Shown: one piece after another, positions 5,995 through 33,665 of the stretch
Position numbering within the stretch: position 1 is the first letter of the stretch
Layout: each line of letters begins with the position of its first letter
DNA from: Prevotella sp.
GTDB lineage: Bacteria; Bacteroidota; Bacteroidia; Bacteroidales; Bacteroidaceae
Assembly (NCBI GenBank): GCA_017561825.1
Contig: JAFZBK010000039.1
Span: forward strand, 1-37,760
DNA length: 37,760 bases
Direction of reading: 5' to 3'
The notes under the pieces: generated by a model
What the model was told of the DNA's origin: nothing
The model's input: the letters and a program-made list of their open reading frames with translations, nothing else
The model's database searches: none
Program-made: the position numbers and the translations under genes

Positions 5995-6027
5995 CACGTC
6001 AATTATTCATTAATAAAAACACGAACT

Positions 6028-10892: not shown

Positions 10893-10913
10893 ATACTTCT
10901 GGTTTATCTTGGG

Positions 10914-10945: not shown

Positions 10946-10972
10946 GAAATAATAGTTTTTCTTTCCATATCT
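10935..10972 (-). terminator. Terminator of the six-gene surface operon
   Basis: A perfect 15-bp stem, AGATATGGAAAGAAA (10935-10949) with TTTCTTTCCATATCT (10958-10972), and an 8-nt loop. It lies ~40 bp after the last stop of the minus-strand surface operon. There is no strong T-run after it on the minus strand, so termination strength is uncertain. Confidence 0.65.
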
Positions 10973-11012: not shown

Positions 11013-13292
11013 CTAATAAGATAGTTGTATGTTATAGGGAGTGAACTTTATATGGGTCTTAACACCAGTCTCTTTATCAACGACATCCATCCAAGGTGTC
11101 AAGGTTAAGTCAACCTGGGGATCGTCAATGGTCGTGATGCGCCAACCATTGGTGTATTCGCCATCCTTGATTCCATAGGTAATACCATCCACTGTATAAG
11201 GCCAATCCTGAGATGTGGTGCCTTGAGAACCGTTCTTGCCTTTCCAGGAGGCCTCGATACCCATATTTGTAACTTTGTGCGCGCGAGTACCCCGACAGGA
11301 GGTAATGCTTGAGAACTCAAAGATATAGGCATCGTGCTCTTTGCCATCTAAGCTTGTTGAGGCAGACATGTGACTGTAGTCGCAATTATCTTGGGTAACC
11401 AAGATAACGGAGAAGAGAGGGTTCCCCGACGAGAAAGGCAATCCTTTGTCCATCCATTTGATATTCCCATCTTCTGAATCAGAGTAACAAGGATAGGCGA
11501 TGTAGTCGCTTTCGTATTGAAGCCCCTTGAGTTTGTAGATATACTCTTTATCCAATGAGGTTTTATTTGTAATAACTGAAGAGCTTACAGGTTTGTAGAT
11601 ATCTATCAGTTCTTTTCCTTTGAACACGGCTAATCTGGGATAGTACTTTTTGCCGAAGGAGGTGAAATATCCTAGTTGAGACAGTTTGTAACTTCCTTGA
11701 AAGTCAGTGGTTCCATCATCGTTTCTCACGGTAATGCGCGAGATTCGTAGCTTGCTGTCGTCGATCTTGGGATACCAGGACTTTGTCCAATGAAATTTCT
11801 CAATGGTTTTCTCACCCAGAGAAAAGCTGATGGCCCATGGTCCTTTGAGTTTTTCGAGCAATGTCTGGTGCTTGTCTTCTTTCAGCGTTCCGTCATCGTC
11901 AAGATAATTGGAGTATTCTTCCCACTTGTCGCTGAACTCTTTCAAGGCTGTTCCATCCTCCCATGCATTACCCGTCAAATATTCAGTGTATTCCACTAAC
12001 GAGGCTGCGTCTTTGATGAAACTACCGATGACATTGGAAGCTATTCTTTCCAGATTGAGATCAAGCATGAGCACTGCCTCGTGACCTATATTGGGAATAA
12101 ACTCCAAAGCATTGGATAAGCCAATGTCTGTGATACCCGAACTGGTAGTACCACCAACTGAAGACTGGAATCCTAAATAGAAATAAGGTTGATAACGCAA
12201 GCCGATGGATTTCGTATAGAGTCCGACACCTACACTGAGATGGAAGCGAAATCCTATAGAACCGCTTAGTACGGCCTTGCTGAAGTCAAAGTCATTTTTA
12301 AAGTCACCTTCTTCGTTTTCAAAGTTCTTCATGTTGGAGATTTCGGAAATATTCTTGTTCCCGTCAATTTTCGGTGAAGATGGAGTAGATTCAAAAAAAG
12401 TCTTGCCTTTGATATTGCCTGTGACCGAGGCATTGGCTACAAACATCAGTTTAAAACCCAGGACGAACTTAATCAAAACATAGCCGACCTTTACTCTCGC
12501 TTTAGAGGGCAAGATGTTCTTTTTTTCTTTGATTTTCACTTCTCCTTGTAACGTACCTGTTACATCGAAGTCCCAATTACTCTCAACTTTTGTGTATGAC
12601 TTGATATTTGGGAACATACCGTCTCCCATCTCAACCTGAATGCCGAAAGTACAATCAACCGAGTTTTTACTCTCATCGAAACTTACTTTCCCCTCAACAG
12701 GGCCTTTGGATAAAGAAAAATCCCCTTTCGGATGGAAAGTTTCGTGAAAGGCTTGCGTATCTTCCAGATCAAACTCGTCATCACCGCTACGTGTCTCATT
12801 TGGGCCTGTTGCATCAGGATTGGATAGTTCGGCTTTAAGATTGAATGTCTTGAATATGTCCTTCATATCGGCCACACAAGTCAGGCAGCGATAGAAATCG
12901 CCAGTGTTGCCGACAGCCAATACATGGTTGCCAAATCCCTCGGGAAAGTGATCAGTTTCCAAACTTACGAGAATATCACCCTTGACGGGAAGCAGTTCGA
13001 TAGGTGTGTTCTTATCAAAATCGATATAGGTGAACAGTTCATCGGGATCTGACTTCACTTTGATGATATGGCTCTGCATATCATCGCTGAAATGACGTAC
13101 GTTGGAATTGTACTGGTAGTATGCATCAAGGTTATCTTCTTGAACGTGTACCACTTCATCGTAGCCTTCGCCTGTATAGACGGGTAGTTCGTCATCGTTA
13201 AGTATGGAGTCCTCCTCATCCATGTAAAGTGTACATGAGACGGCGAGAAATGCGATGCAAGCGAAAAGGAATACCTTTTTCATAAGACTCAT
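11013..13292 (-). CDS. Large lipoprotein of unknown function, last gene of the surface operon
   Basis: A 759-residue protein with lipoprotein signal MKKVFLFACIAFLAVSC (starting at Met4, ATG 13283, an equally good start). Acidic residues follow the cysteine (DEEDS), as in surface-exposed Bacteroidota lipoproteins. The body is beta-rich with long glycine/hydrophobic alternations (LSGSIGFRFHLSVGVGLYTK; YQPYFYLGFQSSVGGTTSSG). A glycosylation-like or linker-like acidic/threonine region lies near residues 160-185. I do not recognise a family. Alternating strands of this sort also occur in the giant protein upstream (~1640-1830), so the two may share a fold (inference). It starts 12-21 bp after the preceding gene and is followed by a hairpin terminator. 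Confidence 0.85.
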   Translation of the reverse strand: MSLMKKVFLFACIAFLAVSCTLYMDEEDSILNDDELPVYTGEGYDEVVHVQEDNLDAYYQYNSNVRHFSDDMQSHIIKVKSDPDELFTYIDFDKNTPIELLPVKGDILVSLETDHFPEGFGNHVLAVGNTGDFYRCLTCVADMKDIFKTFNLKAELSNPDATGPNETRSGDDEFDLEDTQAFHETFHPKGDFSLSKGPVEGKVSFDESKNSVDCTFGIQVEMGDGMFPNIKSYTKVESNWDFDVTGTLQGEVKIKEKKNILPSKARVKVGYVLIKFVLGFKLMFVANASVTGNIKGKTFFESTPSSPKIDGNKNISEISNMKNFENEEGDFKNDFDFSKAVLSGSIGFRFHLSVGVGLYTKSIGLRYQPYFYLGFQSSVGGTTSSGITDIGLSNALEFIPNIGHEAVLMLDLNLERIASNVIGSFIKDAASLVEYTEYLTGNAWEDGTALKEFSDKWEEYSNYLDDDGTLKEDKHQTLLEKLKGPWAISFSLGEKTIEKFHWTKSWYPKIDDSKLRISRITVRNDDGTTDFQGSYKLSQLGYFTSFGKKYYPRLAVFKGKELIDIYKPVSSSVITNKTSLDKEYIYKLKGLQYESDYIAYPCYSDSEDGNIKWMDKGLPFSSGNPLFSVILVTQDNCDYSHMSASTSLDGKEHDAYIFEFSSITSCRGTRAHKVTNMGIEASWKGKNGSQGTTSQDWPYTVDGITYGIKDGEYTNGWRITTIDDPQVDLTLTPWMDVVDKETGVKTHIKFTPYNIQLSY

Positions 13293-13304
13293 TATTGGGT
13301 TTGA

Positions 13305-13988
13305 TTATTCAATGGTAAGTTTAAATAGGTTTTTGAGAGAGCCATGCGTCTCCCCGTCGAACTCAAGTGCCTCGTCGAACTCCTCAAGCGTATAGTTTCG
13401 TCGGTCGTAGCAGCGGAATACGATGGTTTCATGGCTCAAGGCATAAGGTCCCCAGACACGGATGAGGGTATAACGCACCCCAAATTTCTCAAGCGTCTGT
13501 CCCATTCCTCGCAGTTCATCCCCACAGAAAGCACCGATGAGCATGTCTTCATTTACGGGTTGCCCATGCACTCTGATGTCGGCATAGACCACCATATCCT
13601 CAGGATAGTTGAAATTTGCGGTAAACTCCCAGCGTGGGATAACAGTGACACGGCATGTGTCGGTTTTTGTGTAGTCAATGACAGGAATAGCTATTGCCTC
13701 TGTGGAGCCTTGCGCCACGCCCACCAATGTGTCAGGATTGATGAATCGTGCCACCTCTTGGTTGATGGTCGTCCAGAATACTGCACCATTGGAGACAGAG
13801 TCGGGTGTGAATAGGGGGCGTACAACACAGGTATCGCCTTCCATGACCGTCACATCATGATTGCTGAGCGTCATGGAAACAGGCAAGGTAGCCTCGTTAG
13901 GTTCGAAAAACTCAGCGCAGGACACAGTCAGAAGACTGGCTGTCAATGCGAGAGTTATGTTGTATAGCTTCTTTATCATATCCTTCAC
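13305..13988 (-). CDS. Small lipoprotein with Ig-like domain and GAFxGDExRG module
   Basis: A 227-residue lipoprotein (lipobox TVSC, Cys24). ATG 13979 is an alternative start. Residues ~35-118 look like a bacterial Ig-like (BIG2-type) domain: SMTLSNHDVTVMEGDTCVV, then VAQGSTEAIAIPV. Residues ~125-227 carry a module with LIGAFCGDELRGMGQ, RYTLIRVWG, IVFRCYDRRNYTLEEFDE and HGSLKNLFKLTIE. The same module ends the 1165-residue first gene of this operon (VGAFVGDECRGEGR...AGSLKNPVELIG). Shared modules in the first and fifth genes argue that their products work in one assembly. Located 20 bp after the fibronectin-III gene. Confidence 0.87.
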   Translation of the reverse strand: MKDMIKKLYNITLALTASLLTVSCAEFFEPNEATLPVSMTLSNHDVTVMEGDTCVVRPLFTPDSVSNGAVFWTTINQEVARFINPDTLVGVAQGSTEAIAIPVIDYTKTDTCRVTVIPRWEFTANFNYPEDMVVYADIRVHGQPVNEDMLIGAFCGDELRGMGQTLEKFGVRYTLIRVWGPYALSHETIVFRCYDRRNYTLEEFDEALEFDGETHGSLKNLFKLTIE

Positions 13989-14008
13989 TTTTTCAAGGTG
14001 TTACGATC

Positions 14009-16162
14009 CTACTTTTTTTCAGGAATGGTCACAATAGCGGTATTTGAACGGCTCGTCTCCCTCCCGTCACGGAACTTGATTTTTACATAATACTCAGCAG
14101 TTTCACCTGGTCGTATCGTATAGTCAAAATAAGTCGGCTCGTCCTTGGCAGCCGAGGTGACATAGCGAAATCCTTCTTTGCCTTTAGCCTTGCGGTAAAT
14201 GCAATAGTAATAGTCTGCGTCAATGGGTATCTGTCCCACATCCCATCCTAAACGTACCGAACCGTCACGTTGTTCATAGCCAGCATAGAGTTTGATGGGC
14301 ACTTCGAACACTTGTGGTCCACGGAAGAGGAACGACTGCTGCATACTAAGACCCGATGATGCTCCCATGTGACTAATGGTCTCAACAGCGTAGTAGTAGC
14401 GGCGATCCTGTTCGTAGGGCGGTCGATCCTCCATATAGAAGGTGTTATCTTGCAGCGAGTCGGCATCGATAGTGGCAATAAGCGTCCAGTGATCCTCGCC
14501 TTTGAGCTTACGCAGTAGCCGGTGCTGCTTCACTGTGGCTTCGTTGGAACCAATCCACCAGATACGAATCGCTTCATCGTCCATGGAAACGGAGTCCACA
14601 CGACAGGTCATTGGCGGAGTGAAGTCTGGTATGGGTACGGCAATGGCTTCAGACATCTGTGAGTCATTACCACTCCAGTCAGAGGCTTTCACCTTATAAT
14701 AAACATATCGTTGGTTCAGATTAATATTAATCGTGTCGAAGTAGAGCGTGTCGCGCAGGTCAACAGGAGTAATGCGTATAAACTGGTGGTCCAAAGCATT
14801 GGCTTTGTAAATCTCATACTGACGAACATCCTTGTCGGGCGAAGGACTCCAGCGCAGGCTGACCAATCCTGTGGGAGATACCAGTGCGCGGAAGTTCTGC
14901 GGAGTTTCTGGAGCCTTTACATCGGAGATGCGGATGGGCATGGGTACCGACATTGCTACGTTATGAGCCGTATCATAGGCGGCTATGGCGATGGTTCCTG
15001 TAGAAAGACCAGTAACATTGACCACACACATGGTGTCGGTTGGAGACAGGAGTGTGTCGGTGAGTGGTAGCCACTGGCCAAGTGTTACTTGCTCATGGTA
15101 GTATAGAGGCGCAAAACCTTCGAAATCAGCCTCTAAGCTATCCTTATGCCATATAATGCGGGCAATCACAGCATTGCCAGGACGCTCAATCTCGATACGG
15201 TCAAGCACCGGGATGGCAGGTGGAACGAGGTCGCGCACCTCCACGCGGTGGACAGCCGACGGGTTACTGCGCAGACCGAAAGCGTCGTAGGCCCGCAAAC
15301 GGTATTCATAGGTACCGATAGCAAGTCCCTCATCGTTGTACACGTTTAGGTCAGCCTCAAGAGCAGGATTCACCTGGGATGGCAGGTAGGGGCGTTCGTT
15401 CAGCACGCGCCACGAACCCGTTCCGTTGTCACGACGTTCAATGTCATAAACAGTGTGTTTGTCATGTGGCCAGTAAATCTGCACGTTGTTAGGGGCAATG
15501 ACAGAGTCGGTGATTTCTGTCGTGTAGCTATCGGGAATATAAGGAGTGTTCTTTACATCGAAATGAATGCCGCCCTGTACAGGTAGAATGCTGTCAGGAA
15601 CCAAAGGATTGACGATATAGTCGTAGGTAACTCCAGACTGCGCAGTGCGGTCGATGAACATCAGTCCCATGGCCTGAGCTATGTCGGGACGCATTTCGGC
15701 AATGAGCATGGCAAAGCTGTACAGTGTTTGCTGTTCCTCCCTTACTTCAAGGATACTGCCCGCTGTTCCAGGGGCACTCTGTGTCTGGTCGAGACTGGTG
15801 CCCTTGCCGAAGATGAGTTGTACTGCTGCGGCAGCCAACGAGTCGTTTGCAGCAAAACGACTCATAAACTCACGTCGACTGATGGGGTGGACATTGGTGG
15901 CCAACGTGTCGATTCTGAAGTCTTGCTCACGACAGACACGCACCACCTCATAGCCATAACCATTGAGATACTTCCAAGGCACAAACTCATCAGGTGCCCA
16001 ACGCACCATCACACTGTCACCCATGGCTCGGGTCAGCACGCTGATCTTGTACCAATGGCGATCAGGTGTCTGCGCTTCAACGCTGGTGTCGATTGTCTGT
16101 GCTGTCAGCGCAAGGGGCATCAGTGCCCCCATCAGCCAAAAAACTATTTTACTCTTATTCAT
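14009..16162 (-). CDS. Secreted fibronectin type III repeat protein
   Basis: A 717-residue exported protein: signal peptide 1-21 (KIVFWLMGALMPLALTAQ). An N-terminal region (~25-200) of unknown fold is followed by four fibronectin type III-like units at about 205-310, 405-505, 508-610 and 625-715. The FN3 signs are APETPQNFRAL with VSLRWSPSPDKDVRQYEIYK and YVYYKVKASDWSGN; similarly IRIWWIGSNEATVKQHRLLR and RYYYAVETIS. No sorting domain is visible at the C-terminus. Its ATG overlaps the TAA of the giant gene by one base (TAATG), so it is translationally coupled to it. It probably partners the giant protein, which also carries FN3-like N-terminal strands. Confidence 0.9.
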   Translation of the reverse strand: MNKSKIVFWLMGALMPLALTAQTIDTSVEAQTPDRHWYKISVLTRAMGDSVMVRWAPDEFVPWKYLNGYGYEVVRVCREQDFRIDTLATNVHPISRREFMSRFAANDSLAAAAVQLIFGKGTSLDQTQSAPGTAGSILEVREEQQTLYSFAMLIAEMRPDIAQAMGLMFIDRTAQSGVTYDYIVNPLVPDSILPVQGGIHFDVKNTPYIPDSYTTEITDSVIAPNNVQIYWPHDKHTVYDIERRDNGTGSWRVLNERPYLPSQVNPALEADLNVYNDEGLAIGTYEYRLRAYDAFGLRSNPSAVHRVEVRDLVPPAIPVLDRIEIERPGNAVIARIIWHKDSLEADFEGFAPLYYHEQVTLGQWLPLTDTLLSPTDTMCVVNVTGLSTGTIAIAAYDTAHNVAMSVPMPIRISDVKAPETPQNFRALVSPTGLVSLRWSPSPDKDVRQYEIYKANALDHQFIRITPVDLRDTLYFDTININLNQRYVYYKVKASDWSGNDSQMSEAIAVPIPDFTPPMTCRVDSVSMDDEAIRIWWIGSNEATVKQHRLLRKLKGEDHWTLIATIDADSLQDNTFYMEDRPPYEQDRRYYYAVETISHMGASSGLSMQQSFLFRGPQVFEVPIKLYAGYEQRDGSVRLGWDVGQIPIDADYYYCIYRKAKGKEGFRYVTSAAKDEPTYFDYTIRPGETAEYYVKIKFRDGRETSRSNTAIVTIPEKK

Positions 16163-19100
16163 TATTTCATGACATCTTTAATATCAAACGTGTAATTACT
16201 CAACTGATGAGTTTCTATCGTAGGATTGTAATTGAACTCTATGATTTCGGGTGTAATGTAATAGCTGCCGTTTGCCTGTTTTTCAGTACATACATCGAAG
16301 GCATGTTCGCTGTCGGCACCGATTCCCGTATGATAGGCATTCTGCCTGTAGCAGGCAAACTTCAGATTCTTGATATTTTGCAACAGCGACCTGGCATCGA
16401 TGTCCTTCGGGGAATACAGCGTCCTCCCTCTATCATCCTTTCTTTCATTAAGAAAATCTTTTCCGTATGATACAATCAGGTTGTTCTCGTTAGTCACCTG
16501 ATGGGCACGATTCCTGTTCAGTCGCCATACTATATTCGGCCGTCGGGTAATGACGTATGTGTCACTGTTACGTAGAATAGAACCTTCATTGATGAACTGG
16601 TCATATTCTTTTCCTTTCCTTCCCTGATAATCACCATCATAATCAGCATAAATCATCAGCGGCACATTCAGCACAAGGAAGGAGGCTTTATTATGACGAG
16701 TGTAAATCGTCGTGTTATTCCTGGACTTGAACGAATAGTAGTCTTCCAGACTGATGTTCATGGAACCGTATGGCTTTTCAATGTTCTTATATACATCACT
16801 CAACTGATGGGTTTTTGTAATCTGCGACACTTTATGGACAGCATTACGGATGGCTGCCGCCATTCGGCAGTCGGCTAAAATGGTGGATGTAATCGCATCT
16901 ACGGCATCCTGTCTCTTCTCAAAGCCCCATGTATAGCGTCTGTGATCGCTGCGGTCACTGGCATAATACATACTTGGGGCAAAGAATTGGCTTACGTCAT
17001 AGATTTCCTTTTCGTCGGCGGAAGAAGCCAAATGACCTCCATCGGTATATTTCGAATGGTTGCCCTGACGATATTCTGGCCTATCAAGTTCAAGTGTCAG
17101 ACCGGGGAAGTCGGAATAACGATAAGGTGGATAGCCGCCAATTATAGCCCACTTCGACCAATACCCCATCGAGAGGTAGGGATCCAGTTTCCAAAGGTTA
17201 TCAGAAGCTATCTTCTCATTATTGTAATTGGTCTGGTAGTTATACTCCACTTCCTGCAACTGTATTCGGACGCGTTCACGCCTTCGAATATCGTTGAAAT
17301 ACGTTTTGGAATAATCCTCATCGAAGTTGTTGTACGCGTTCTCTGGAATAAGTAATCTCGAATAGAGACAGGTGGAGAAGTCCTTCATGTCAACGTTGTA
17401 CTTCAGTCGCTGCACGGCCATGCTATCCAATTCCATCGTTTCGCTCTCTAAGCTACTAAGATAGGTGGTCAGATAGGCATCCATGTTCAGCTCACCTTCC
17501 TCAGTCACCTCGCTCTTACCTGTCTGACTGGCATCATAACCCGACTTCTTTTTGTCGCCCATAATGTCATCGTCCTTCTTTTCAGCCTTCTGGGTGCTGT
17601 AGGTCAGCGCCAATTCGTCAATGTGTTCCATCAGGTTGTCGTAGCTCTTTTTGTGGATACGATTGATGGAGATACGGAGATACTTATAACCTCTTCCTGC
17701 CATCACCTTAATGGGGTTGATGTCGATTTCATTCTTGGTACGCAGGAAGATATAGTCACCTTTTACATCGGTATCGACCTTGATCTCCTCCAACGGAATC
17801 TGGAACATGTCAGAGTCCATGTCGCGCTGCAAGTCGGGTTCATGTACTTCTGGCAGATCAGCATCAGCAATGACATCGGCCAGTGATGGTTTCGGTGGCA
17901 TCGGTTCATCGAAGGTAAACACAGGGATGTTCTCATCATTTAAGAACTGCCACTGCTGCTGAGTGATACCATCAGAATCAAGCACTGTCGCCTTATGTGT
18001 TTTATCGTCACGGCTAATATCCACATAGGGAGTGCCCTCTATGAGGAATCCACCAGTACCTGGGACTGCGGCCTCATGACCGTCGGAATACACCTGATAG
18101 ACGAGAATCGTAGGTGTGTACGTATCACGATCGCCCTTGGCAGGGTTAAAGACATTAGTGATATACGTTGGTATTGCATAGAAACCCACGATTTCATTCT
18201 TGCTATTGTCGCTCCTTTTTTCTTTCATGAGCATGTCGGTGGCCTTCTGCTTGGTAGCTTCCGCACGTTTGTACTCCGTGTAGGACTGTTTGGCGGTTTT
18301 TGAAGCTTTCACCCGTTGGAAGATAGTATCGTTTGCCTCAACGATGTCCAACTCTGGCATAGGACCATATAATCTTCTCAGCTTGGCATCACCGCCAGTC
18401 TGTCTCACATTGTTAACTCTCGTATTGGTCTCAGTGACTCTCGTATTAGTCTCTCTCATGTTAGTGACTCTCGTATTGGTCTCTCTCGTGTTAGTGACTC
18501 TAGCAGCGTTAGTCATCATCGTGTTAGACACCTTCTCTGTTGCCATGCTTCCGATGATGGTAGTTGTGTTAACACCTTCGTTCTTGTAAACATTATATAT
18601 ATCCTTAGAACCTTTATCAGTCTTAAGTACATCCATTGTTTCTTTCAACTTGAGAACTTCACCCTTTTCCTTGGCTATATTGACAATGAAATCTCTAATA
18701 TTCTCCTCGAATTGGTGGACATCAATTTGAGGTATGTACTCCTGAGAGCTTGACGGCATGGTTTCTATAGCATCTCTATAGACTTTTTCTCTGATTAAGA
18801 ATTTCCAGTCGCGCCATCCAGGATAGTGAGCATCCAGCCACGGTGTGTACACATCGTTCTTCCACTGCTTTTGGGCAGCGTTCCTTCTCTTGTTATACTC
18901 GGCCAAAGGACCTTCTTCGTATTCTTTCATGGCCGCAGCATAGGCTTCTTCCACAGCTCTGTCGTAAGCTTCCTGCTCCATACGGTAGTCGTAGGAAGCC
19001 TGTTCGTTATGTAGAATCTTGGAAGGCGACTCCCATACATTGGAACTTGGCTTCGAGACTTCTATGCGCAACGATACCGGCTCATCGGCACTGCCGAAGT

Positions 19101-22100: not shown

Positions 22101-25086
22101 AGTTCTGTAATACATCCACATAGATTTCATCGAGGCTGATGGACCATCCGCCCACTTTGTTGGTCGCTGCCTTCAAATAGGCACGCGTGTCAAGTTCAGC
22201 TTTACAGGTAACACCCGACTTGTCAAGGTAGAAGTTCTTCAGCAAAAACTTTACGCGACTGTCGGCGATGTCAACCTTCTTCTTATCCTCCTTGACAACA
22301 GTAATCTCATTGCCCTGCTGTACGATATCCTCCACCTGCTCCTTGGCACTTTCATCTACTTTGCCAGAGCCCTCAATGATGGTGGGAATCGATACGTACA
22401 TATTTCTCATGTACAGTCCTTGCCACTCCTCGTCTTTGGTGATACCGCACAAACCTAACTGATAGTCTTTGGGCATTGGCATCAGTTCGTTGTTCTCTTC
22501 GCTGTGGTGGTCGTAGAGAATGTAACCAGGCGAGAATGAGTAGCCGGGCAGGTCTTCTATCTGGAAAGGATCCATGGCGGCCATGGCCATCCAGTTATCC
22601 CAATCATGAATGCTGGCTTTCAGTGTCAGCACCGGCTCTGCATCGATGGCTTCACCACCCACATCCTTCTTCAGGTCTGGAACGGCCATCTCGACATGCA
22701 CCTGCAGGAACTCGAAGGAATCATTCTTCCATGCCACATAGCAGCCATCCGTAGGATTGGTAATATCGTCGGGCGATATGAATTTGCACTTGAACTTCGT
22801 CTTCGGGTCTTTCACCGTGAAGTGTGAGAGCAGGCACATGTTACCAGATTCAGGCAACAGCCGGTCAGGACTCATACAAAGCATAGGAGCACCAAAGATG
22901 AGGAACTCTTCATCGGTAATGTCGGCATCAGGCATAATAAACTCGCCAATGACATTCATCATGGCCCGGGTGGGCGTGAAAGTCATGTTGGCAATTTGGA
23001 TGTCAACCGGTGTGTTATTGTACACATTGTCGATACTGATGGGCAGGTGCAAATCGTCCACCGACTCACCATTCATGATACTCAGGGCCTTCTTCCCATC
23101 CACGTAGTACTTGTAGTACTTGGAGAGATGGAGATTTTTGGCCAGATTGCCGACTTCGGCGTTGGCCAACCCCTGTGCCATGTCAGCATAGGGCATTTCC
23201 AGATCGGCGATAAAGTTATCGACACCCCAGTCAGAGAACAACTTTTCAACACTCTCTATATCCGTGGGCGTAGAACTTTTACCAGGATCGCTCTTCACAA
23301 CGCCCTCATAGACGATATTGTCGGTGTTGATACGGATGTCATCGAACTTGACGGCCACCATAAGAGACATGCCCAAGGGGTTCCATTCCACATGTCCTGT
23401 ACCAGAGAAAGAACCATCGCTGCTACCTTTTTTCAGATCATTACCCAGGGTCAACGTGTACTGCCCAAGTCCTACTGACTTACCCCTCAATTGCTCAGGA
23501 GTGCTCGAAGTAGGTGTCATGTTTGTCGGAGCTGATGCCTCCGGACAAGCAAACTCACGTGTCTTGGTAAAGCGGTTGGCTAAGTAGAAATCAGTCGTAT
23601 TAACTTCGTCGTTCTCATAACGTACCGACTTTTCATTTATACTTTCCGCCAGCACACGCAGGACGTAGTAGTTGCCTACCTCCATCTTGTCTTCCATGTC
23701 ATCCCACTTGATGGTGTCCTTCAAGTTCTCTGTCTCACTGGTGTAGATAGGATTCTTCTTGAAGGTCTGCGAGTGGTTTTCGTTGATTTCGCCTTGGAAG
23801 AGTTGCAGTGTATATTTGTGCTTGATGGTATCCTGTCGCTCACCCTCACCCTTGGCAAACCAAGCCTTACGCCATTCTACATGGATATCCTCGCCTGTGA
23901 AGACCTTGCGGTAGGTGATTTCCGGGAACTGTGGACTGGTGATTGTGGGATTGGTAAAGACGTAGAGCGAGTCCTTATCTGCAGCGTTAAAGCCCATTCC
24001 GTTACCGGAGCCATCACCCTCAGGTTCTTTACCATTTTTACTTGTAGATCTTGTTACATTATCCTTCTGTGAAACGGAGAGGCTGTTCTTCGTGATTTTA
24101 AACAGGCGTATCTCACTCTTTCCCTCATTTTCGAACAGCATATAATCCAAGCCCAAGGAATTAACATTCCTCGGGAATTTCGAAAAACTTGAACTACCAA
24201 TAGAGGCCGTTACCTGTGCCACATAGACGGTGTTCTCTTTCATCCGTCTGACATAGTTGGCAGGAATCACGCACTGGGGCACCTTCAACTGTGTGTTTTC
24301 ATAAATAGCACCGTTTCTCATAGCCTCAGTAGGCGACTGTCCAGGTAACAGTTCTGTTATCTTGAACGAGTAGTTATACGAACCCATTCTGGAACAGTTG
24401 GTCGTAGGTGTTGTCCAACTGAATATGGGGTTGTCTTTGGTCAGCGTGGCCGTTAAGAAGGATGAAATGTCATTACCAAAATCCAGGAATGCACTATTGC
24501 GTTCTCTCTTGTTGGTAGTCTTTACGGGATCGACAACAGGATAAAGGAACCGAGGAGCCTGTATCTTGTAACACACCTCAAACTGACAGCGTCCACCTGT
24601 AGGTATGCTGAGAGGATAAGGGGTGGTCAGGGTTGCATCCCACTTATAAGCCGTCAAGTGTACCTCATAGGTTCCCTCTTCCAAAAGACCTTTATCGGTT
24701 TCTCCACGGACGGACACATCAGTTGCATAGTTTAAATGGTTGAAAAGGGTCTTCATCTCAACCATATTGAGCATCTTAACCTCGCCTGGTGCTACGGTAA
24801 TCGGTTTTTGGGGCATACGGTTTGGCGGGGTGATAACAGCCATATTATTGAAAGGTGCTATCTGCTCTATCTGCATGCCCATAAATACATTCTGCGTGAC
24901 ATCTGTATTGTTCCTCAATGTCAGGGTGAAATAGTTACCCGGGTTATCGAGATACAATCCTATTTGTGGCGGCAACACCCGCTGCACGGGCGACACAGTA
25001 ACAGTAATGGGTTCTTGAGCCCATGAAAGACTTATTCCACAAACAAGCCAAATGACACAAAGCGCATATTTTATTCTGGTTACCAT
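16162..25086 (-). CDS. Giant secreted protein (2974 residues) with TANFOR-like N-terminus
   Basis: The largest gene in the window. I start it at 25086 (signal peptide MVTRIKYALCVIWLVCGISL, cut near SWAQ); the open frame begins 37 codons earlier inside the preceding gene. Residues ~25-165 match from memory the Bacteroidota TANFOR pattern: LDNPGNYFTLTLRN, PITVAPGEVKML, then LLEEGTYEVHLTAYKWD. FN3-like strands follow (~165-330). The middle (~600-1800) is a long beta-rich region of unknown fold, with glycine-rich hydrophobic stretches at ~1370-1400 and ~1640-1830. A helical, probably coiled-coil part lies at ~2025-2110, then a tandem-repeat linker (~2195-2225). The C-terminal third has no sorting domain I can see. 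It probably sits on the cell surface with the beta-barrel protein encoded 19 bp upstream. Function unknown. Confidence 0.9.
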   Translation of the reverse strand: MVTRIKYALCVIWLVCGISLSWAQEPITVTVSPVQRVLPPQIGLYLDNPGNYFTLTLRNNTDVTQNVFMGMQIEQIAPFNNMAVITPPNRMPQKPITVAPGEVKMLNMVEMKTLFNHLNYATDVSVRGETDKGLLEEGTYEVHLTAYKWDATLTTPYPLSIPTGGRCQFEVCYKIQAPRFLYPVVDPVKTTNKRERNSAFLDFGNDISSFLTATLTKDNPIFSWTTPTTNCSRMGSYNYSFKITELLPGQSPTEAMRNGAIYENTQLKVPQCVIPANYVRRMKENTVYVAQVTASIGSSSFSKFPRNVNSLGLDYMLFENEGKSEIRLFKITKNSLSVSQKDNVTRSTSKNGKEPEGDGSGNGMGFNAADKDSLYVFTNPTITSPQFPEITYRKVFTGEDIHVEWRKAWFAKGEGERQDTIKHKYTLQLFQGEINENHSQTFKKNPIYTSETENLKDTIKWDDMEDKMEVGNYYVLRVLAESINEKSVRYENDEVNTTDFYLANRFTKTREFACPEASAPTNMTPTSSTPEQLRGKSVGLGQYTLTLGNDLKKGSSDGSFSGTGHVEWNPLGMSLMVAVKFDDIRINTDNIVYEGVVKSDPGKSSTPTDIESVEKLFSDWGVDNFIADLEMPYADMAQGLANAEVGNLAKNLHLSKYYKYYVDGKKALSIMNGESVDDLHLPISIDNVYNNTPVDIQIANMTFTPTRAMMNVIGEFIMPDADITDEEFLIFGAPMLCMSPDRLLPESGNMCLLSHFTVKDPKTKFKCKFISPDDITNPTDGCYVAWKNDSFEFLQVHVEMAVPDLKKDVGGEAIDAEPVLTLKASIHDWDNWMAMAAMDPFQIEDLPGYSFSPGYILYDHHSEENNELMPMPKDYQLGLCGITKDEEWQGLYMRNMYVSIPTIIEGSGKVDESAKEQVEDIVQQGNEITVVKEDKKKVDIADSRVKFLLKNFYLDKSGVTCKAELDTRAYLKAATNKVGGWSISLDEIYVDVLQNYFKRCGFDGKFNVPLLKNKKGNKAEIYYKAGLESYNKRENPKAEDRLFIFKTWQTEQISMDFFLADVNFDEKQTFFLVEAEDTKSARVELCLGGDISISSRIADNLGVATKLGFSLPEIQFTRMRLANCQRWKSEVDKNQAQQYQNWVDEWTSEGREDDRTMVSDDKTVYFDIGKWSGASPQKKLGGFSFTIEKFKLNTSKLAEQEVGLTIGGKLGVLEDKLQASATFSIMAVADLKNKSLKYKDTHFEDASIDSDFGGISLKGKLEVPSSTTEKGYKGELHFSLPGEFLKFDAAGAFVEKKKSQIEINDELKKRYGDKIPAKVNIDSTYNYCFLEVQASSKALSSIQPVSIKSIKGGFYWNCRKQDVKLEFSKDNVTAHYGMLGGLLGVGLVCGGDNAITANGDMMVFYDMFHHRLSTIKMKADMHAVTNDDGSKGLVNAEASIVYENTDEKKYFEVDVTVDATADMEDAFKEFVGSDLVANLKKKANTGLSEMGEGSGRNTETSQADKNEQQKKGESSGHLKAGATVNVNFKITWKDKKVEHKPALWHLYIGQPSKNEEQDKRCRITFIDFALGKKTDHFAMWATIYADAYLCFGNELPLDDLPPIPKEISDYLGLKQENLTQGDGDLNAEAVKTRTKQFSTFKPGGNKGGVAFGAKIYGDMGLNLGLVYARSTAIAGFDVMIMKLKKGTQCIGGGEAGKNGWYGMGQVYALLKGEIGLDIDLWLYRGKIPLVDVGLGALLKAGMPNPTWIYGKAKAHFNLLGGLIKGSATVQLKAGEVCTPEFGNPLDNIDIFGDVTPGDEDHDTGWNEENIISASVYPEFNTNMEMDTPFRLLDQNKAYQIADFDEELEKYSEEASRTYRFCLSPDSIRLACFEPDQATVDNPKATYDQRVPYNTKNHKLYNVASGSLDYGKLYRLKLSGYAQEWRDGEWGDPFFNDSTTNHKDKRVPWYQTQYYYFRTDPTPAVLEKDIMVFNTDYYDDLKRPTFALAHSRWDVDNFGSADEPVSLRIEVSKPSSNVWESPSKILHNEQASYDYRMEQEAYDRAVEEAYAAAMKEYEEGPLAEYNKRRNAAQKQWKNDVYTPWLDAHYPGWRDWKFLIREKVYRDAIETMPSSSQEYIPQIDVHQFEENIRDFIVNIAKEKGEVLKLKETMDVLKTDKGSKDIYNVYKNEGVNTTTIIGSMATEKVSNTMMTNAARVTNTRETNTRVTNMRETNTRVTETNTRVNNVRQTGGDAKLRRLYGPMPELDIVEANDTIFQRVKASKTAKQSYTEYKRAEATKQKATDMLMKEKRSDNSKNEIVGFYAIPTYITNVFNPAKGDRDTYTPTILVYQVYSDGHEAAVPGTGGFLIEGTPYVDISRDDKTHKATVLDSDGITQQQWQFLNDENIPVFTFDEPMPPKPSLADVIADADLPEVHEPDLQRDMDSDMFQIPLEEIKVDTDVKGDYIFLRTKNEIDINPIKVMAGRGYKYLRISINRIHKKSYDNLMEHIDELALTYSTQKAEKKDDDIMGDKKKSGYDASQTGKSEVTEEGELNMDAYLTTYLSSLESETMELDSMAVQRLKYNVDMKDFSTCLYSRLLIPENAYNNFDEDYSKTYFNDIRRRERVRIQLQEVEYNYQTNYNNEKIASDNLWKLDPYLSMGYWSKWAIIGGYPPYRYSDFPGLTLELDRPEYRQGNHSKYTDGGHLASSADEKEIYDVSQFFAPSMYYASDRSDHRRYTWGFEKRQDAVDAITSTILADCRMAAAIRNAVHKVSQITKTHQLSDVYKNIEKPYGSMNISLEDYYSFKSRNNTTIYTRHNKASFLVLNVPLMIYADYDGDYQGRKGKEYDQFINEGSILRNSDTYVITRRPNIVWRLNRNRAHQVTNENNLIVSYGKDFLNERKDDRGRTLYSPKDIDARSLLQNIKNLKFACYRQNAYHTGIGADSEHAFDVCTEKQANGSYYITPEIIEFNYNPTIETHQLSNYTFDIKDVMK
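18410..18505 (-). repeat. 30-bp tandem repeat inside the giant gene (VTNTRETNTR)
   Basis: Units of 30 bp, and 15-bp half units, such as GTGACTCTCGTATTAGTCTC on the plus strand. They encode repeats of TNTRETNTRV, and flanking NAARVTN and NNVRQ are decayed copies. All length changes by whole units keep frame, so the tract can vary in length without breaking the gene. It forms a polar, positively charged linker between the coiled-coil region and the C-terminal third. Confidence 0.85.
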
Positions 25087-25105
25087 AATTCCAAGTTTTC
25101 GGTTC

Positions 25106-26830
25106 TTATTCTTCTGGTTTCTTTTCGCTCTTCCGTTTGATTTCAAACAGACTGAAAGTATATGTATAATTGAATCCCACGTTGAACTCGGTATCATCGA
25201 GGTTGGAAGACCGACGTGTCACATTGACGTCGCCGTATTTGTTAAGACCTGCTGACAGTGAGAACACATGTACCTTTTTCAACGTGTAGCCAACTTCCAT
25301 GTCGGCACCCGCTGAAAGGCTTTTCATCTGATTCTTCACCTCGTTGTAACACATGGAGAGTGTCAACTGGGCATTGAGGTTGTTCTCCTTGAGGAAACTG
25401 CGCCCCGTGGTAAGCGACAAAACATCGCTGGTGTATTGGCGCTGGTAGCCATCAGAACGCTGGTGGCTCAGACTGGTCGTGAAATCCATATTCCAGTCTT
25501 GAACACCTAAATTGTAGGAGGCACCCACAGCATAGGTCGTAACATCGCTCTCACCGATGGCAAAGGGGTTTAGATCTTCATTGTTGGTATAGCTACCTGA
25601 TAGCGAGATCGTATGAGTCAGGTGATTGCCTGCTATCATATAGGAAGGTGTTACATAGAGACTGTTCATGATACGATTTACACGGGTTGTATCATTAACG
25701 TGAGCTGTTCCATCTCCCTGTAGTTGACGGTAGCCATTGTAACCGACGGCCAATCCCAAATTGCCAAAGCGTGTAGAAGCGTTGGCATTGTAGATGAAGC
25801 CTCGTGTGGTGTAGAGTTGCTTGTTTGTGAGGTTGTCTTCCTGACCCGAGAAACTGGCAGACAAAGATAACCTACGTAACAACACCGTACTTAAATTCAC
25901 ACCAAGTGCATGGTAGTTATTAGACATATAGTAGGTACCTAACGACGTGTAGTCGGGCTGTATCTGACGATAGAACACAGAGGCGTTAAACCCACTGTAT
26001 GAAAGATTGAGGTTGACGTCACCAGCATAACGTGCAATCGTATTATAGCGAACATCAAACACCTTATCAAAGCGTTCTGCTTCATCGTCTGTGACGATGG
26101 TGCCCCTTTTGTCAAGCGAAAGCATTGAAACGGCGAAGTTTGCCGTCAATGAGAGATGGTCGGAATAGCTCAGTCCACCTCGTAAGCCCAACACCATGTT
26201 GTCCTGCGGTGAAACGGTGTTGGCCCAACGATCATCGAGACTCTTTAGCCGGTCATAGGCTCGTAGGAAATAAATATCAAGGAAGTTGCCTCGTGAGCCA
26301 TACCCCAACTTGATTCCCCAACCATTTCGTCTGTACTGCGGGGAACGAGCGGCAGGATTGGTGGGATCATCATTGATTGCCTTTCGCAGGGTTCCATAGA
26401 ACGCACCAAAACGCAGTTTGTCACCCTGATACTCCACACCATAGCCATTGAATGGCATGGACATGACGTATGAACTGTAGTTCATACTGCTTTGGCCAAA
26501 GTGTAATGACCAGTTCTTGTATCGTGGACTGATATGAAATGAGATGTGTGGATAGTTGAAACTGGTGTTATCATTGGTGTAGTAGAACGAGAAAGGCATC
26601 GATAAGCCGTAAAGCGATATGTTCAAGTTGGCATAAACCATGTTATTCATCGGTGAGGCATAACCATCACCGATTGACGAATAGTAATAGGTGTTCTGCG
26701 TTCCCACGGCACCTGTAATGATGAGCGGATCGCTCTTGGCGATCTGCGAGATGTCCTGCGCATGCATGCCCCCTGTCCATAGCATGGCGAACACTATGGC
26801 TATCGTTGATCTTATGTTAGTCCTATTCAT
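25106..26830 (-). CDS. Outer-membrane beta-barrel protein
   Basis: A 574-residue protein with signal peptide (STIAIVFAMLWTGGMHAQ). The remainder alternates aromatic and hydrophobic residues in ~10-residue strands: MVYANLNISLYGLSMPFSFYY, NLNLSYSGFNASVFYR, LGLAVGYNGYR, FNVGFNYTYTFSLF. The barrel looks like ~24-28 strands by eye. A charged tail (KRKSEKKPEE) follows the last strand instead of a terminal aromatic, which is unusual for a BAM substrate. It is encoded 19 bp before the giant gene, so the likely role is the outer-membrane anchor or exporter of the giant protein (inference). It does not look like SusC/TonB-dependent receptors (no plug) or PorP/SprF by length. Confidence 0.87.
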   Translation of the reverse strand: MNRTNIRSTIAIVFAMLWTGGMHAQDISQIAKSDPLIITGAVGTQNTYYYSSIGDGYASPMNNMVYANLNISLYGLSMPFSFYYTNDNTSFNYPHISFHISPRYKNWSLHFGQSSMNYSSYVMSMPFNGYGVEYQGDKLRFGAFYGTLRKAINDDPTNPAARSPQYRRNGWGIKLGYGSRGNFLDIYFLRAYDRLKSLDDRWANTVSPQDNMVLGLRGGLSYSDHLSLTANFAVSMLSLDKRGTIVTDDEAERFDKVFDVRYNTIARYAGDVNLNLSYSGFNASVFYRQIQPDYTSLGTYYMSNNYHALGVNLSTVLLRRLSLSASFSGQEDNLTNKQLYTTRGFIYNANASTRFGNLGLAVGYNGYRQLQGDGTAHVNDTTRVNRIMNSLYVTPSYMIAGNHLTHTISLSGSYTNNEDLNPFAIGESDVTTYAVGASYNLGVQDWNMDFTTSLSHQRSDGYQRQYTSDVLSLTTGRSFLKENNLNAQLTLSMCYNEVKNQMKSLSAGADMEVGYTLKKVHVFSLSAGLNKYGDVNVTRRSSNLDDTEFNVGFNYTYTFSLFEIKRKSEKKPEE

Positions 26831-26870
26831 GCCTTTCTTCTATATATATAATAAGGTGTAAAGAAGGGGA

Positions 26871-26915
26871 ACAAGAACCACGGAATCCGACTCGTGTCAG
26901 ATTCCGCAGTCTTGT
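26871..26915 (-). promoter_or_regulatory. Intra-operon hairpin between genes 1 and 2
   Basis: CGGAATC (26881-26887) pairs with GATTCCG (26900-26906), with an inner GAC/GTC and an outer ACAAG (26871-26875)/CTTGT (26911-26915). It lies in the only sizeable gap (92 bp) in the operon, just after the stop of the Ig-repeat gene. The T-richness after it on the minus strand is weak. It may act as a partial terminator or an mRNA-processing and stability element, giving different amounts of the Ig-repeat protein and the rest. Confidence 0.55.
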
Positions 26916-26922
26916 ATTCTCT

Positions 26923-29900
26923 TTACTTCAAGATCTTCTTGCTGATGCGATGTGCTCCGTCGTTAACGGTGATGACATATATACCTCTGGGAAGACCTTC
27001 GAGAGAAATGGATGTGCCAACGGTAGTGCGTACCACTGTACCTGCCGCATTAGTAATAGTGATGCTGGCTTCACGATCACCAATGGAAATTGTGCGTATA
27101 GCTGTTGTCTGTCCGATGAGTTCAACCGGATTCTTCAGAGAACCTGCCTTACCACCATATGTCAGGGTGTTGTCTAAGTCGGAGTATGTGCCATCAATCT
27201 TATTATAAAGCTTGAAGGTAACAGTCTCACCAGCGATACCGCCCACATTGATGAACATGTACTTATCGCCAGCAATACGTCCCTCACCACGACACTCATC
27301 ACCCACGAAGGCACCAACACTGTAGTTCTCGGGATCGTCAATGCCCGACAAGACAGCAATAATCGGCATGTTGTCGGCATACGCACTGTTGTCGTACTCC
27401 CAGATCTTCATTCTGGGCGCATTCGATTTCGCAAAGAATGTGCCTTCATAAGCCTTTGCAGCAGAAGGATCGGGTGTACCCCAGTTAATGGTCTTGCCGC
27501 CTTCGCTTTGGGTATAGTACATATAACCCTTGCCTGCCTTGAAAATGAATTCTCCGTCTGCTACCCAGTTGCTACCGTTGAACTCTGCGAAATTATCCTT
27601 GCCGATAATCATGTCACCTTCCTTAGCAGTGCTGGCCAAAGCCGTTGCCAATGCGGTGAGCGGCTGGTCAATCTGATGCGGATAGCCAAGCCAGGTATAA
27701 CCCTTCACGGTCTGCGGCAGATCAGAAGCGCTGATAGCATTCACACTCGTACCAAGGTCGAATACCACGTTGCCTTCGGTCTTAATCTTATACATACCAT
27801 CACCAGGCTTCAGCTCTGTGATGTCGCCAAAGAGACCATAAGTAGGATCATTGTAGAGCAAAGCCGTTTGTGAACGGATCTCTATCACTTTGTTCTTTCC
27901 GTTCTGCATCTCAGAAATCCATTTTCCGTTGCTATAGAGAACGATGGATTTGCTGTCTACAGGAAGGGCATTCACTGTTATCCAATTCCAACCCTCTTCT
28001 AAAGCAATCATCTGTTTAACGATAAGCGTTCCAGTTTTTGTCTTATCATCCTTTGAATACTGGTCTACGCCATCATAGCTAACACTGAAGGTAAATGTTC
28101 CGGTCATCGATGACTTAATCGTCCAAACCAGTCCTGTTTCATCAGATGTAGCCGTAACAGGATTCATATTATAGTTACTCTTGAAACTAACCGCCACCTT
28201 TGAAGGATCAATCGTTCCACCTGTCTTCTGTGTAAGGGTTAGGGTAACCTCCTTACCAACAGTCGTTTCCAATACCGAATCGAACGTCAGGGAAACAGGT
28301 TCCTCCACATTCACGGTAATGGTAACGGTTGCATTGGGATTATCTTCAGATTTCACCACAATTTTCCATGTACCTGCCTTGGTGGCGATGCCATCACTGA
28401 ATGCGTCTGCGGATGACTTATTGGGAGTCAGGATTATATTCTTATTGGTAGCATTCGATGGGTTCACGGTTATCAACTCTCGGATCATGCTATATACATC
28501 ATCACCAACGATGGCATTGATAGTCTTTGTTTTCGCAGTAAGAGAGGTTACACCATTCTTGATGGTCAGGTTGATTGTCTTGGTCAGCGAAGCACCTGTA
28601 ACATCCATGGCATTCGTAGTGATGGTCACTGTGATCGGTTTGGTTGTCACCTTTGTAGCAATATAATCTGCGTCATAGTAAGCAGTATTTGAACTGGTTG
28701 ACAAGGTGAACGACTTATCAATATACTTGGAAGCCGTTGCGTCATTATCCCATTCTGTTGAACCAATCGTAATAACTGCCTCAATAGCATCCTTCACATT
28801 GTCACCTACGTTCACGGTCAGTTCCTCTGGACCATTGATATAGTCAGGACGTGCCATCACCGTAACATGCACCGTTTTCGTGGAAACAACTTTATCATTA
28901 TTCATTGCATAGACATGTACATCGCACTCACCAGGCTTGATGGCAGTACCCTTGCTCACGTTATCTGTTTCCTCCACGGTGAAATCCTTATCGTCGGCTT
29001 CCTCTGGTGTATAAGTCACCTGATTCTTCAAAGCTTCCTTCACATCATCACCAACATAAACCGTAATCGCCTTACCACCTACCTCAATAGCAGTAACAGG
29101 CTGCTTAACTATCAGGGAAATAGTGGCTGAAGGCACTGAGGTATTTTGGGGATTTGGATTCTTTGGAGTTACCTTGACTGTGGTCTCGCCTGCTTTCTCA
29201 GCTTTACCGGTTTTCTTATTATACAAGGATACATCCTCGGGAGTGAATACCAGTTCTGTATCTACGTAATCTCCACTCGGTGTCCAAGAGATGGCTTTCT
29301 TGATAGCATCAATAGCGTTTTGGCCAACCTCTACAGTTACTTGTTTTTGCTTGACTGTAATCCTTTCGATATAATCCAGAATGGTTACTGTAACCTGAGG
29401 TGAAGTCACATTATCAGAAGCAGGATTGTTGGCTATAATCGTAACCGTTGTTTCACCTGTTCCAATAGCTTTGTAGTTCTGATCTATCAGTCCTTTGCTC
29501 TCTCTCAGCGTGAAAGTCTGATCAGTAGCATCATCTGGATCAACGGAGATATGTTTAGTGAGTACATCCTTGATATTATCCCCCACATGAACTGTCAGCT
29601 TAGAGACATCACATGTGATACTGGTTACGGGAACAGAAGTCTTAGTAATTCGAATCAAGAAATAGTAGGTTTGAATGTCAGAATAAGTCTTTTCCTGATA
29701 ACTGCCATCATTATTCTTCACAGTCCAATCTCTAACCATGACTTTCATACCTAACTGCAGATCATTTCCTCCCGTCGCTGCTACAGCTTTGAGCAGTCCG
29801 TCATCATCAATAGTAAAGTTGTCAGTATGACTTTTCCCATCCCAAGATAGGAAAATCTCGGTTTCTGAAGTATCAACTTTCGAGCCCTTCACCTCAGATG

Positions 29901-30420
29901 CTGGCTGTCTGTCAGCACCATACACCAACGTAACCAAACTAGCCATATCCTTGGTACCAGGCAGAGATACCTCTACCAGCTTTTTTGCTTCATCAGGAAT
30001 CTCTATCCCAGAAAGGGCATCAAGAGTCAGTGTTATCGGGACGGGTTGGATGGTTTCACCATTCCATATAGCCGTAGTAGTGAACTTATACACAACGCCC
30101 TTATAGTAAGCCTTGAAGGTGATGGTTGCATCAGCATCATTCTTAGGATCACCCTTGACATTCAGTAAAAATACATCTTCGGGTAAGTTACCTTGCTGTT
30201 CTGGCGTGTAAAACCCCGTTGCTGCCGCACGACATTCACCCCCGATGAAAGCAGCCACTTCAAGTGCATCGTTAGGCGAAACCGTCTGTCCGTTTAGGGT
30301 GATTTGGAGATACACCGGACTCTCACCGCTATAGCGATTGTTGCTCACGGGATTCCATCTTTGTGCCCATGTCACCATTGTGGTGACCATCAGCATCATA
30401 GTAAACAGAAATCTTTTCAT
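26923..30420 (-). CDS. Ig-repeat surface protein with T9SS type A sorting domain
   Basis: A 1165-residue secreted protein, first of the surface operon. Signal peptide 1-20 (FLFTMMLMVTTMVTWAQ). An N-terminal module (~22-130) contains VAAFIGGECRA. After a cadherin/Ig-like segment (~140-262) come five Ig-like (BIG2-type) repeats of ~80-95 residues (~263-707), each opening with a motif such as LTVHVGDNIKDVL, ITVYVGDDVKEAL or LTVNVGDNVKDAI. A further Ig-like unit precedes a GWNWITVNA domain (~810-960) and a VGAFVGDECRGEGR module (~1030-1095). The last ~65 residues (SITITNAAGTVVRTTV...LEGLPRGIYVITVNDG...ISKKILK) are a classical type A T9SS sorting domain. So it is exported by the type IX system to the cell surface. 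Ligand unknown. Confidence 0.92.
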   Translation of the reverse strand: MKRFLFTMMLMVTTMVTWAQRWNPVSNNRYSGESPVYLQITLNGQTVSPNDALEVAAFIGGECRAAATGFYTPEQQGNLPEDVFLLNVKGDPKNDADATITFKAYYKGVVYKFTTTAIWNGETIQPVPITLTLDALSGIEIPDEAKKLVEVSLPGTKDMASLVTLVYGADRQPASEVKGSKVDTSETEIFLSWDGKSHTDNFTIDDDGLLKAVAATGGNDLQLGMKVMVRDWTVKNNDGSYQEKTYSDIQTYYFLIRITKTSVPVTSITCDVSKLTVHVGDNIKDVLTKHISVDPDDATDQTFTLRESKGLIDQNYKAIGTGETTVTIIANNPASDNVTSPQVTVTILDYIERITVKQKQVTVEVGQNAIDAIKKAISWTPSGDYVDTELVFTPEDVSLYNKKTGKAEKAGETTVKVTPKNPNPQNTSVPSATISLIVKQPVTAIEVGGKAITVYVGDDVKEALKNQVTYTPEEADDKDFTVEETDNVSKGTAIKPGECDVHVYAMNNDKVVSTKTVHVTVMARPDYINGPEELTVNVGDNVKDAIEAVITIGSTEWDNDATASKYIDKSFTLSTSSNTAYYDADYIATKVTTKPITVTITTNAMDVTGASLTKTINLTIKNGVTSLTAKTKTINAIVGDDVYSMIRELITVNPSNATNKNIILTPNKSSADAFSDGIATKAGTWKIVVKSEDNPNATVTITVNVEEPVSLTFDSVLETTVGKEVTLTLTQKTGGTIDPSKVAVSFKSNYNMNPVTATSDETGLVWTIKSSMTGTFTFSVSYDGVDQYSKDDKTKTGTLIVKQMIALEEGWNWITVNALPVDSKSIVLYSNGKWISEMQNGKNKVIEIRSQTALLYNDPTYGLFGDITELKPGDGMYKIKTEGNVVFDLGTSVNAISASDLPQTVKGYTWLGYPHQIDQPLTALATALASTAKEGDMIIGKDNFAEFNGSNWVADGEFIFKAGKGYMYYTQSEGGKTINWGTPDPSAAKAYEGTFFAKSNAPRMKIWEYDNSAYADNMPIIAVLSGIDDPENYSVGAFVGDECRGEGRIAGDKYMFINVGGIAGETVTFKLYNKIDGTYSDLDNTLTYGGKAGSLKNPVELIGQTTAIRTISIGDREASITITNAAGTVVRTTVGTSISLEGLPRGIYVITVNDGAHRISKKILK

Positions 30421-30480: not shown

Positions 30481-30546
30481 CAAAATTACATATTAATATG
30501 CAAACTTAATAGGACTATTGTCGCAAAAACTAGGACTTTTCGCGCA
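30481..30546 (-). promoter_or_regulatory. Putative control region of the surface operon
   Basis: Minus-strand -7 boxes TAAGTTTG (30508-30501) and TAATTTTG (30488-30481) lie 60-90 bp before the ATG. Neither has a good -33 TTTG at the normal distance. Instead two imperfect 15-bp direct repeats, GCGCGAAAAGTCCTA and GCGACAATAGTCCTA (12 of 15 matching), lie just upstream with a 21-bp period. This suggests an activator-dependent promoter. A small inverted repeat ACAACAA/TTGTTGT is at 30558-30578. Confidence 0.45.
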
Positions 30547-33651: not shown

Positions 33652-33665
33652 AATAATTTCTTGTT

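Follow-up and report, generated by a model that had tools for sequence, protein, structure and literature searches.

What do six neighbouring genes for exported proteins build in a Prevotella genome, and does it belong to a known class of surface structure? The genes lie in a stretch of 37,760 nucleotides (GenBank assembly GCA_017561825.1, contig JAFZBK010000039.1), hereafter the window, which is one entire contig of a 2.98-Mb genome that is 88% complete. They are six consecutive open reading frames (ORFs), A to F, arranged head to tail at 11013-30420; all are on the minus strand, as are the coordinates given below for parts of them. The gaps from A to F are 92, 19, -1, 20 (29 if E begins at its ATG) and 12 bp. 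Inspection of the translations by eye shows signal peptides at the start of A to D and lipoboxes in E and F. An initial annotation had pointed out these six exported genes and the gaps between them, and the ORFs confirm both. Comparing the genes across genomes, we lean modestly towards one answer. The six genes would be the Prevotellaceae-type form of a Bacteroidota-wide, TANFOR-related surface display apparatus that is linked to the type IX secretion system (T9SS) and has an exchangeable binding tip, a mechanism that we infer.

The centre of the unit is gene C (16162-25086), which encodes a giant TANFOR-related protein of 2974 residues with a signal peptide. An alternative upstream ATG at 25197 would give 3011 residues and overlap B. 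Residues 1532-1900 of C (19387-20493), which we call CK, are conserved enough to find relatives throughout the phylum. Scanning named genomes with CK, we obtained at least 560 relatives among 577 candidates and kept the best 80. The first 45 of these 80 (L111-L155) are the Prevotellaceae-type loci. Their labels read Prevotella, Prevotellaceae, Bacteroidaceae or Bacteroidales. Judging by the titles, the majority were assembled from metagenomes, many of ruminant origin, and two come from cultured strains. Of cultivated bacteria, Hallella seregens ATCC 51272 carries A, B, C, D and F, and Segatella baroniae DSM 16972 carries A to E. This set of loci (L numbers) overlaps with our set of genomes (G numbers): L141 corresponds to G022 and L124 to G006, and the sets are therefore not independent. 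Counting as testable the loci with enough flanking DNA, we find that B precedes the giant by no more than 288 bp in 35/35, and that A in turn lies upstream of B in 33/33. D lies downstream of the giant in 33/37 (in L134 it is 7.5 kb off, behind a broken giant), while E was found in 20/24 and F in 19/22. These counts indicate that the gene order is strongly conserved. The neighbourhood comparison proposed with the initial annotation thus came out clearly in its favour, as the order is kept in dozens of genomes, and because of this recurrence the six-gene arrangement is far above chance. In L134 (5288-18726), the giant is spread over two frames, and DUF285-like repeats are visible by eye in the second; this is either a pseudogene or an assembly error.

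A smaller core extends beyond this group. Near 11 fused giants outside the Prevotellaceae-type loci, B was present in 8/8 and D in 9/9 testable cases, and none of A, E and F was detected. Around 24 related proteins in which no TANFOR part was detected, D was found in 17/20 and B upstream in 2/16 testable loci. A profile of B matched 71/395 genomes at E ≤1e-40 (our own count) and 150/395 at E ≤1e-5. We picked 40 regions of up to 20 kb from the stronger of these barrel matches, not from all, and several regions end inside the unit. A barrel gene was called in 39 of the 40, and a gene with giant modules adjoined it in 31 of the 39. D lay within three genes of the barrel in 18 of the 39, and both giant modules and D were present in 16. 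Taken from gene neighbourhoods, these data indicate that the barrel (B), the giant (C) and the FN3-like protein (D) form a core found repeatedly throughout the phylum. Among open-licence PMC papers, we found no further description of such a system beyond the TANFOR work discussed below.

How is the giant related to TANFOR proteins? The initial annotation had called it TANFOR-like, and the answer is divided. The TANFOR model TIGR02542 matches neither C at E ≤0.1 nor anything in the host genome at E ≤1. Matches to this model are rare, with 6/296 phylum genomes positive at E ≤1e-5 and none above the curated cut-off. The likeness itself stood when profiles were compared. Aligning 44 giant N-termini (the window's and 43 of its group) with seven TIGR02542-positive proteins by hhalign gave a probability of 99.2 and an E-value of 2.5e-19 over 264 columns, while two segments of D used as controls reached probabilities of 0.85 and 1.61. 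BLAST also gave E 1e-8 between the N-terminus of C and one TIGR02542-positive protein. The alignments thus support homology between TANFOR proteins and the N-terminal module of C, CN (residues 21-480; 23647-25026). All six TIGR02542-positive genomes match the barrel strongly, at E 1e-75 or better; only four of the six are independent because G308 and G348 supplied rows of the barrel profile. The TIGR02542-positive gene and the barrel gene lie within about 12 kb of each other in 5/6; in G267, about 280 kb separate them.

Following CN, CK and the intervening module CM (residues 485-1010; 22057-23634) by their own hidden Markov models, we find two arrangements. The first part of CM is common to stand-alone TANFOR-type proteins and the second to a separate core protein. 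Window-type giants are fused and consist of CN, CM, CK and a tail. A split form occurs in some Bacteroidales and in Flavobacteriaceae. There, one protein of about 1500-1600 residues comprises the second half of CM, CK and a tail of about 400 residues, and CN with the first part of CM is on a separate protein (for example in L101, L094, L099, L179, G054 and G029). The Flagellimonas loci L165 and L168 show the order core protein, D, a SprB protein with a T9SS C-terminal domain (CTD), a further exported protein and a TANFOR-type protein; in L168, the further exported protein is a PKD lipoprotein.

TANFOR proteins have been described as polymorphic toxins (Jana, Salomon and Bosis 2020, PMC7073777). 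In that paper, many of them carry toxin domains, a new DNase family was found among those without a known domain, and their exit through the T9SS is a hypothesis only. Their neighbourhoods are enriched in SprB, Fn3 (COG3401), PKD and T9SS CTD domains (PMC7073777), the same kinds of domain that we see beside the Flagellimonas core. Two statements of the initial annotation, that the assembly is undescribed and that TANFOR-like proteins have no assigned function, are not supported, given this 2020 description of the proteins and their neighbourhoods. The window unit shares with the TANFOR class a homologous N-terminal module, a Sec signal, a neighbour with a T9SS CTD, an FN3-like neighbour and a genome encoding the T9SS. 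It differs in that TIGR02542 is silent on C, no toxin family was found, and C fuses the TANFOR module to a core protein that is encoded apart elsewhere. Moreover, the words "barrel" and "porin" occur 0 times in the main text of PMC7073777. By these comparisons, the unit is related to TANFOR and T9SS clusters, but the giant is not a typical TANFOR toxin. We would not class the unit among the polymorphic toxins, since it lacks a match to the curated TANFOR model and the evidence on toxin and immunity is indecisive.

The tail of the giant (residues 1901-2974; 16165-19386) is its variable part. Over the last 400 residues, identity to the window giant falls from 56% in L111 to 39% in L113 and 27% in L114. 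The window's tail and those of G022 and G006 are similar only at their starts, over 48-135 residues (E 6e-4 to 2e-10), with a weak likeness at the very end (E 0.1 to 0.5). No relative of the last 666 residues was found in a scan of genome contigs because that part is too variable. Outside the window's group, a tail domain of about 400 residues, built from seven split proteins, matches 10/10 other tails (E 2e-16 or better); it has no match in the window's tail or in those of G022 and G006. Searching the last 400 residues of 40 Prevotellaceae-type giants, the window's included, with Pfam, we find DUF285 and related leucine-rich repeats in 15. Such repeats are a likeness to BspA/DUF285 leucine-rich surface proteins; the window giant differs, as Pfam finds no DUF285 or LRR_5 repeats anywhere in it. 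On a tree of giant heads (14 with DUF285 tails, 25 with others), the tail type changed at least five times. The tree is a quick one without bootstrap and with one long branch; five cut or broken giants were left out, and L155 has no head.

In relatives, the end of the giant is often a different tip, probably a sticky one. Judging from sequence families, the tip in the Prevotellaceae-type group most likely serves to bind surfaces or partners and not to kill cells: the tips of relatives are repeatedly DUF285/BspA-like arrays, and the searches turned up no toxin family. Since the window's own tail matches no family, the case for binding is made from relatives.

Structure modelling covered B and a piece of the giant. 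B (25106-26830, 574 residues) was modelled as an outer-membrane beta-barrel of about 26 strands, 26 in the model, with a pLDDT of 85.3, in agreement with the large outer-membrane barrel named in the initial annotation. No Pfam or NCBIfam family matched B above chance. Searching folds with the model, the nearest is MtrB, and porins, TonB-dependent receptors and ushers also resemble it. The likeness to the MtrB barrel of the Mtr complex (6r2q) is one of fold only; B has no match to that sequence family and no cytochrome partner. The flavobacterial versions of B in L094, L095, L097, L098 and L101 have 810-818 residues, some 250 more than most others. In C, residues ~1180-1779 (19750-21549) were modelled as a long amphipathic antiparallel beta core. 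The strand alternation of this core is 4.1 against 2.44 ± 0.18 in shuffled sequences, a comparison made with no soluble-protein control. That B anchors or exports the giant, as the initial annotation proposed, is plausible. Fold searches with the core brought up only outer-membrane barrels, ushers, LptD, apoB, SprA and a handful of unrelated structures, at low TM or with an rmsd mostly above 9; we claim no fold. By sequence, the giant has no relative in the PDB; two matches at E 0.07 were judged to be chance.

The link to the T9SS comes from gene A (26923-30420), which encodes an exported protein of 1165 residues with a C-terminal T9SS type A sorting domain. As the initial annotation had it, the sorting domain is there: TIGR04183 matches the C-terminus at E 1.2e-6 for the whole protein and at E 3.9e-8 for the last 150 residues. 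The Ig/BIG-like repeats that it also gave to A are visible by eye, though no Pfam model matched the Ig repeats. A search aimed at the translocon protein SprA found it encoded in the host genome (2635.6 bits). The giant thus has a T9SS-substrate neighbour by the CTD on A, and SprA represents the T9SS in the genome. TIGR04183 is positive in 8/36 tails of A proteins, the window's included, and most others end in a short pattern that by eye resembles the short sorting signals reported in Prevotella intermedia (PMC11969387). An ad hoc regular expression for such signals, to be taken as a rough guide, matched 20/35 A tails, and the other 15 look alike by eye. SprB-type T9SS adhesins offer a comparison. 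A CTD-bearing surface protein adjoins the core genes here as SprB repeats do in the flavobacterial core loci, but the repeats of A look Ig/BIG-like by eye, and Pfam finds no SprB in it.

D, E and F complete the unit. D (14009-16162, 717 residues) is an exported protein with FN3-like repeats. The name FN3, taken over from the initial annotation, rests on inspection by eye and weak similarity because no FN3 Pfam model matches at E 0.1; the only weak match is an NCBIfam exoglucanase model. In Fibrella aquatilis (L190, 14961-17612), a second D-family protein beside the core genes ends in a TIGR04183 sorting domain, which links family D directly to the T9SS. E (13305-13979) is a lipoprotein of 224 residues from its ATG, or 227 from a GTG at 13988. 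The BIG2 search that had been suggested finds a Big_2 domain in E (Pfam, 23.4 bits against a cut-off of 22.8), and the C-terminal half of E resembles a domain of A. F (11013-13292, 759 residues) is a lipoprotein without a Pfam family. As had been noted initially, SusC/D, pilin and sheath families have no match in the six proteins (Pfam and NCBIfam, E up to 0.1), and with these libraries the proteins show no SusC/SusD pair of a polysaccharide utilisation locus. Pfam matches to CENP-O, Met_gamma_lyase and GH85_C, at E above 0.01, were judged to be chance.

The unit sits between a pfkB-family sugar kinase gene on its left (9933-10916, minus strand) and an M16 peptidase gene on its right (30710-32065, plus strand), both outside it. 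In the window, the two are almost 20 kb apart. Searching for both in 40 genomes, the own one included, we find them on one contig in 13 same-genus relatives. In 12/13 the site is empty: the two genes are divergent and 72-157 bp apart, measured between the matched parts. The exception is G015, where some 1.2 kb separate the two genes and they do not diverge. Of the 12 empty-site genomes, 11 have no giant match, some of these being only 81-86% complete. The twelfth, G022, has the whole operon on another contig. In G006, the operon is near M16 with a 923-residue gene in between, whose end is AraC-type regulator-like by eye, and pfkB is on another contig. The giant was matched in 4/36 same-genus genomes, the own one included, and in G029 in the core only. 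From the empty sites, the placements in G022 and G006 and the few carriers, the unit is patchy and lies at different sites, and comparative evidence marks A to F as an accessory island between pfkB and M16. The six-gene unit is real, conserved and located at different sites. No integrase-like family was matched in the island proteins (Pfam, NCBIfam). The longest word common to both island edges has 10 bases and is the promoter-like TACAAAATTA, where shuffled sequences reached 6-9; this comparison of shared words gave no clear target-site duplication, and we claim none. About 60 bp before A is the promoter-like TAATTTTG (30481-30488, minus strand), which we take to be a Bacteroidota-type -7 element. 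At the other end, 3' of F, an AT-rich hairpin of 14 bp (10936-10971, minus strand; by eye) likely ends the unit. The hairpin named initially is thus there, though the terminator scan missed it; the AT-rich stem and a poor T-run are the probable cause. An Rfam scan of the window found no family.

Taken together, the display apparatus would work as follows. All six products would pass through Sec. B would be set in the outer membrane as a barrel of about 26 strands and would form the seat or passage for the amphipathic beta core of the giant. D and the lipoproteins E and F would brace the complex, while A, exported by the T9SS, would coat or extend it. The variable C-terminal tail of the giant would be the exposed tip. 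The conserved order at different sites, the phylum-wide B-C-D core and the TANFOR homology argue for this reading. The flavobacterial loci with SprB/CTD, PKD and TANFOR-type genes, the barrel in TIGR02542-positive genomes, SprA and the CTD on A argue for it too, as do the DUF285 repeats in 15/40 tails, the at least five tail changes and the empty sites. Several observations weigh against it. The fold of the C core is unsettled in the model (pLDDT 77.9, pTM 0.51), with no confident PDB match. The strand alternation of the core is barrel-like, but the remainder of the modelled piece also exceeds shuffles in this measure. C has no TIGR04183 match and so lacks a T9SS sorting signal of its own. In 8/39 barrel regions, B has no giant neighbour. 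The window tail matches no Pfam family. Finally, Pfam found no toxin family at E ≤0.01 in the 40 tails, which a control set makes a weak test: among ten proteins that carry CN, CM or both and in which CK was not detected, a single sub-threshold toxin match appeared (TNT, E 1e-3), and the set is mixed, as two or three of the ten may not be toxins.

Could the giant instead be an antibacterial TANFOR polymorphic toxin, with a tail toxin domain absent from the libraries and immunity given by a downstream product? The TANFOR-homologous N-terminus, the fast-diverging tail and the toxins, including the new DNase, on other TANFOR proteins (PMC7073777) speak for it. The lack of a Pfam toxin match says little here because Pfam missed the toxins in 9/10 control proteins. 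We nevertheless regard it as rather unlikely. The tail type alternates with leucine-rich arrays, and outside the group the 10/10 non-seed tails match one conserved domain. The genes after C are, in most testable loci, those for the FN3-like protein and the lipoproteins, not variable small genes. Pfam and NCBIfam show no immunity family in D, E and F, but immunity proteins are diverse, and such a role for E or F is possible. In G054 (L031, 12247-14715), several near-repeated genes of about 80-290 residues with starts MVTLKNKKELN or similar follow core and CN/CM-type proteins and look like an immunity-gene array.

Two further readings seem improbable to us, and about equally so. The barrel and its partners could be an uptake or release channel for large molecules such as polymers or peptides, the giant and D being capture parts of a non-adhesive nutrient system. 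The fold of B, with its likeness to MtrB, porins, TonB-dependent receptors and ushers, would suit such a channel, and surface lipoproteins are common in the uptake systems of Bacteroidota. However, no TonB-dependent receptor, SusD, glycoside hydrolase or peptidase family reaches its cut-off in the six proteins, and the flavobacterial core loci adjoin SprB/CTD and TANFOR-type genes. Alternatively, the barrel has a job of its own, with C, D and A as surface proteins that act independently and just happen to share the island. This would account for the eight barrels without a giant neighbour and for the rarity of B upstream of core proteins without a detected TANFOR part, but hardly for its place just upstream of every testable fused giant (35/35 and 8/8) or its presence in all six TIGR02542-positive genomes, four of them independent. 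We also consider a wider proposal, which we hold as a tentative one. B, the core half of C and D may form an outer-membrane machine dedicated to carrying or presenting TANFOR modules, serving toxin delivery where the TANFOR protein is separate and the display of an exchangeable tip where it is fused. None of the ten TANFOR-type control proteins has a Pfam T9SS tail, so an export route other than the usual sorting signal is possible.

Some other genes of the window lie outside the island. A BspA-type leucine-rich repeat protein (3688-4932; LRR_5 E 2e-89) is encoded 6 kb from it, followed by a BT4734-like/VapE-domain protein (5932-8142), a kind frequent on mobile elements. A Flavo-diiron-type protein (8722-9930) has a partial NCBIfam match to Tet(37), 145.8 bits against a cut-off of 225, and is most likely ordinary. 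On the other side, a PD40 beta-propeller lipoprotein and a DUF6057 protein (32101-35577) adjoin the M16 gene.

New with respect to the earlier account are, on the present comparisons, the phylum-wide B-C-D core, the island with its empty sites, the split giants and the exchange of tails. If B, C and D do form a machine that presents TANFOR modules, this would explain how TANFOR toxins leave the cell. The barrel, the core protein and the FN3-like protein beside TANFOR genes are concrete genes for work on toxin exit. In the Prevotella relatives, many of them from ruminant samples, the same device may set what the cells attach to, with tips exchanged between lineages.

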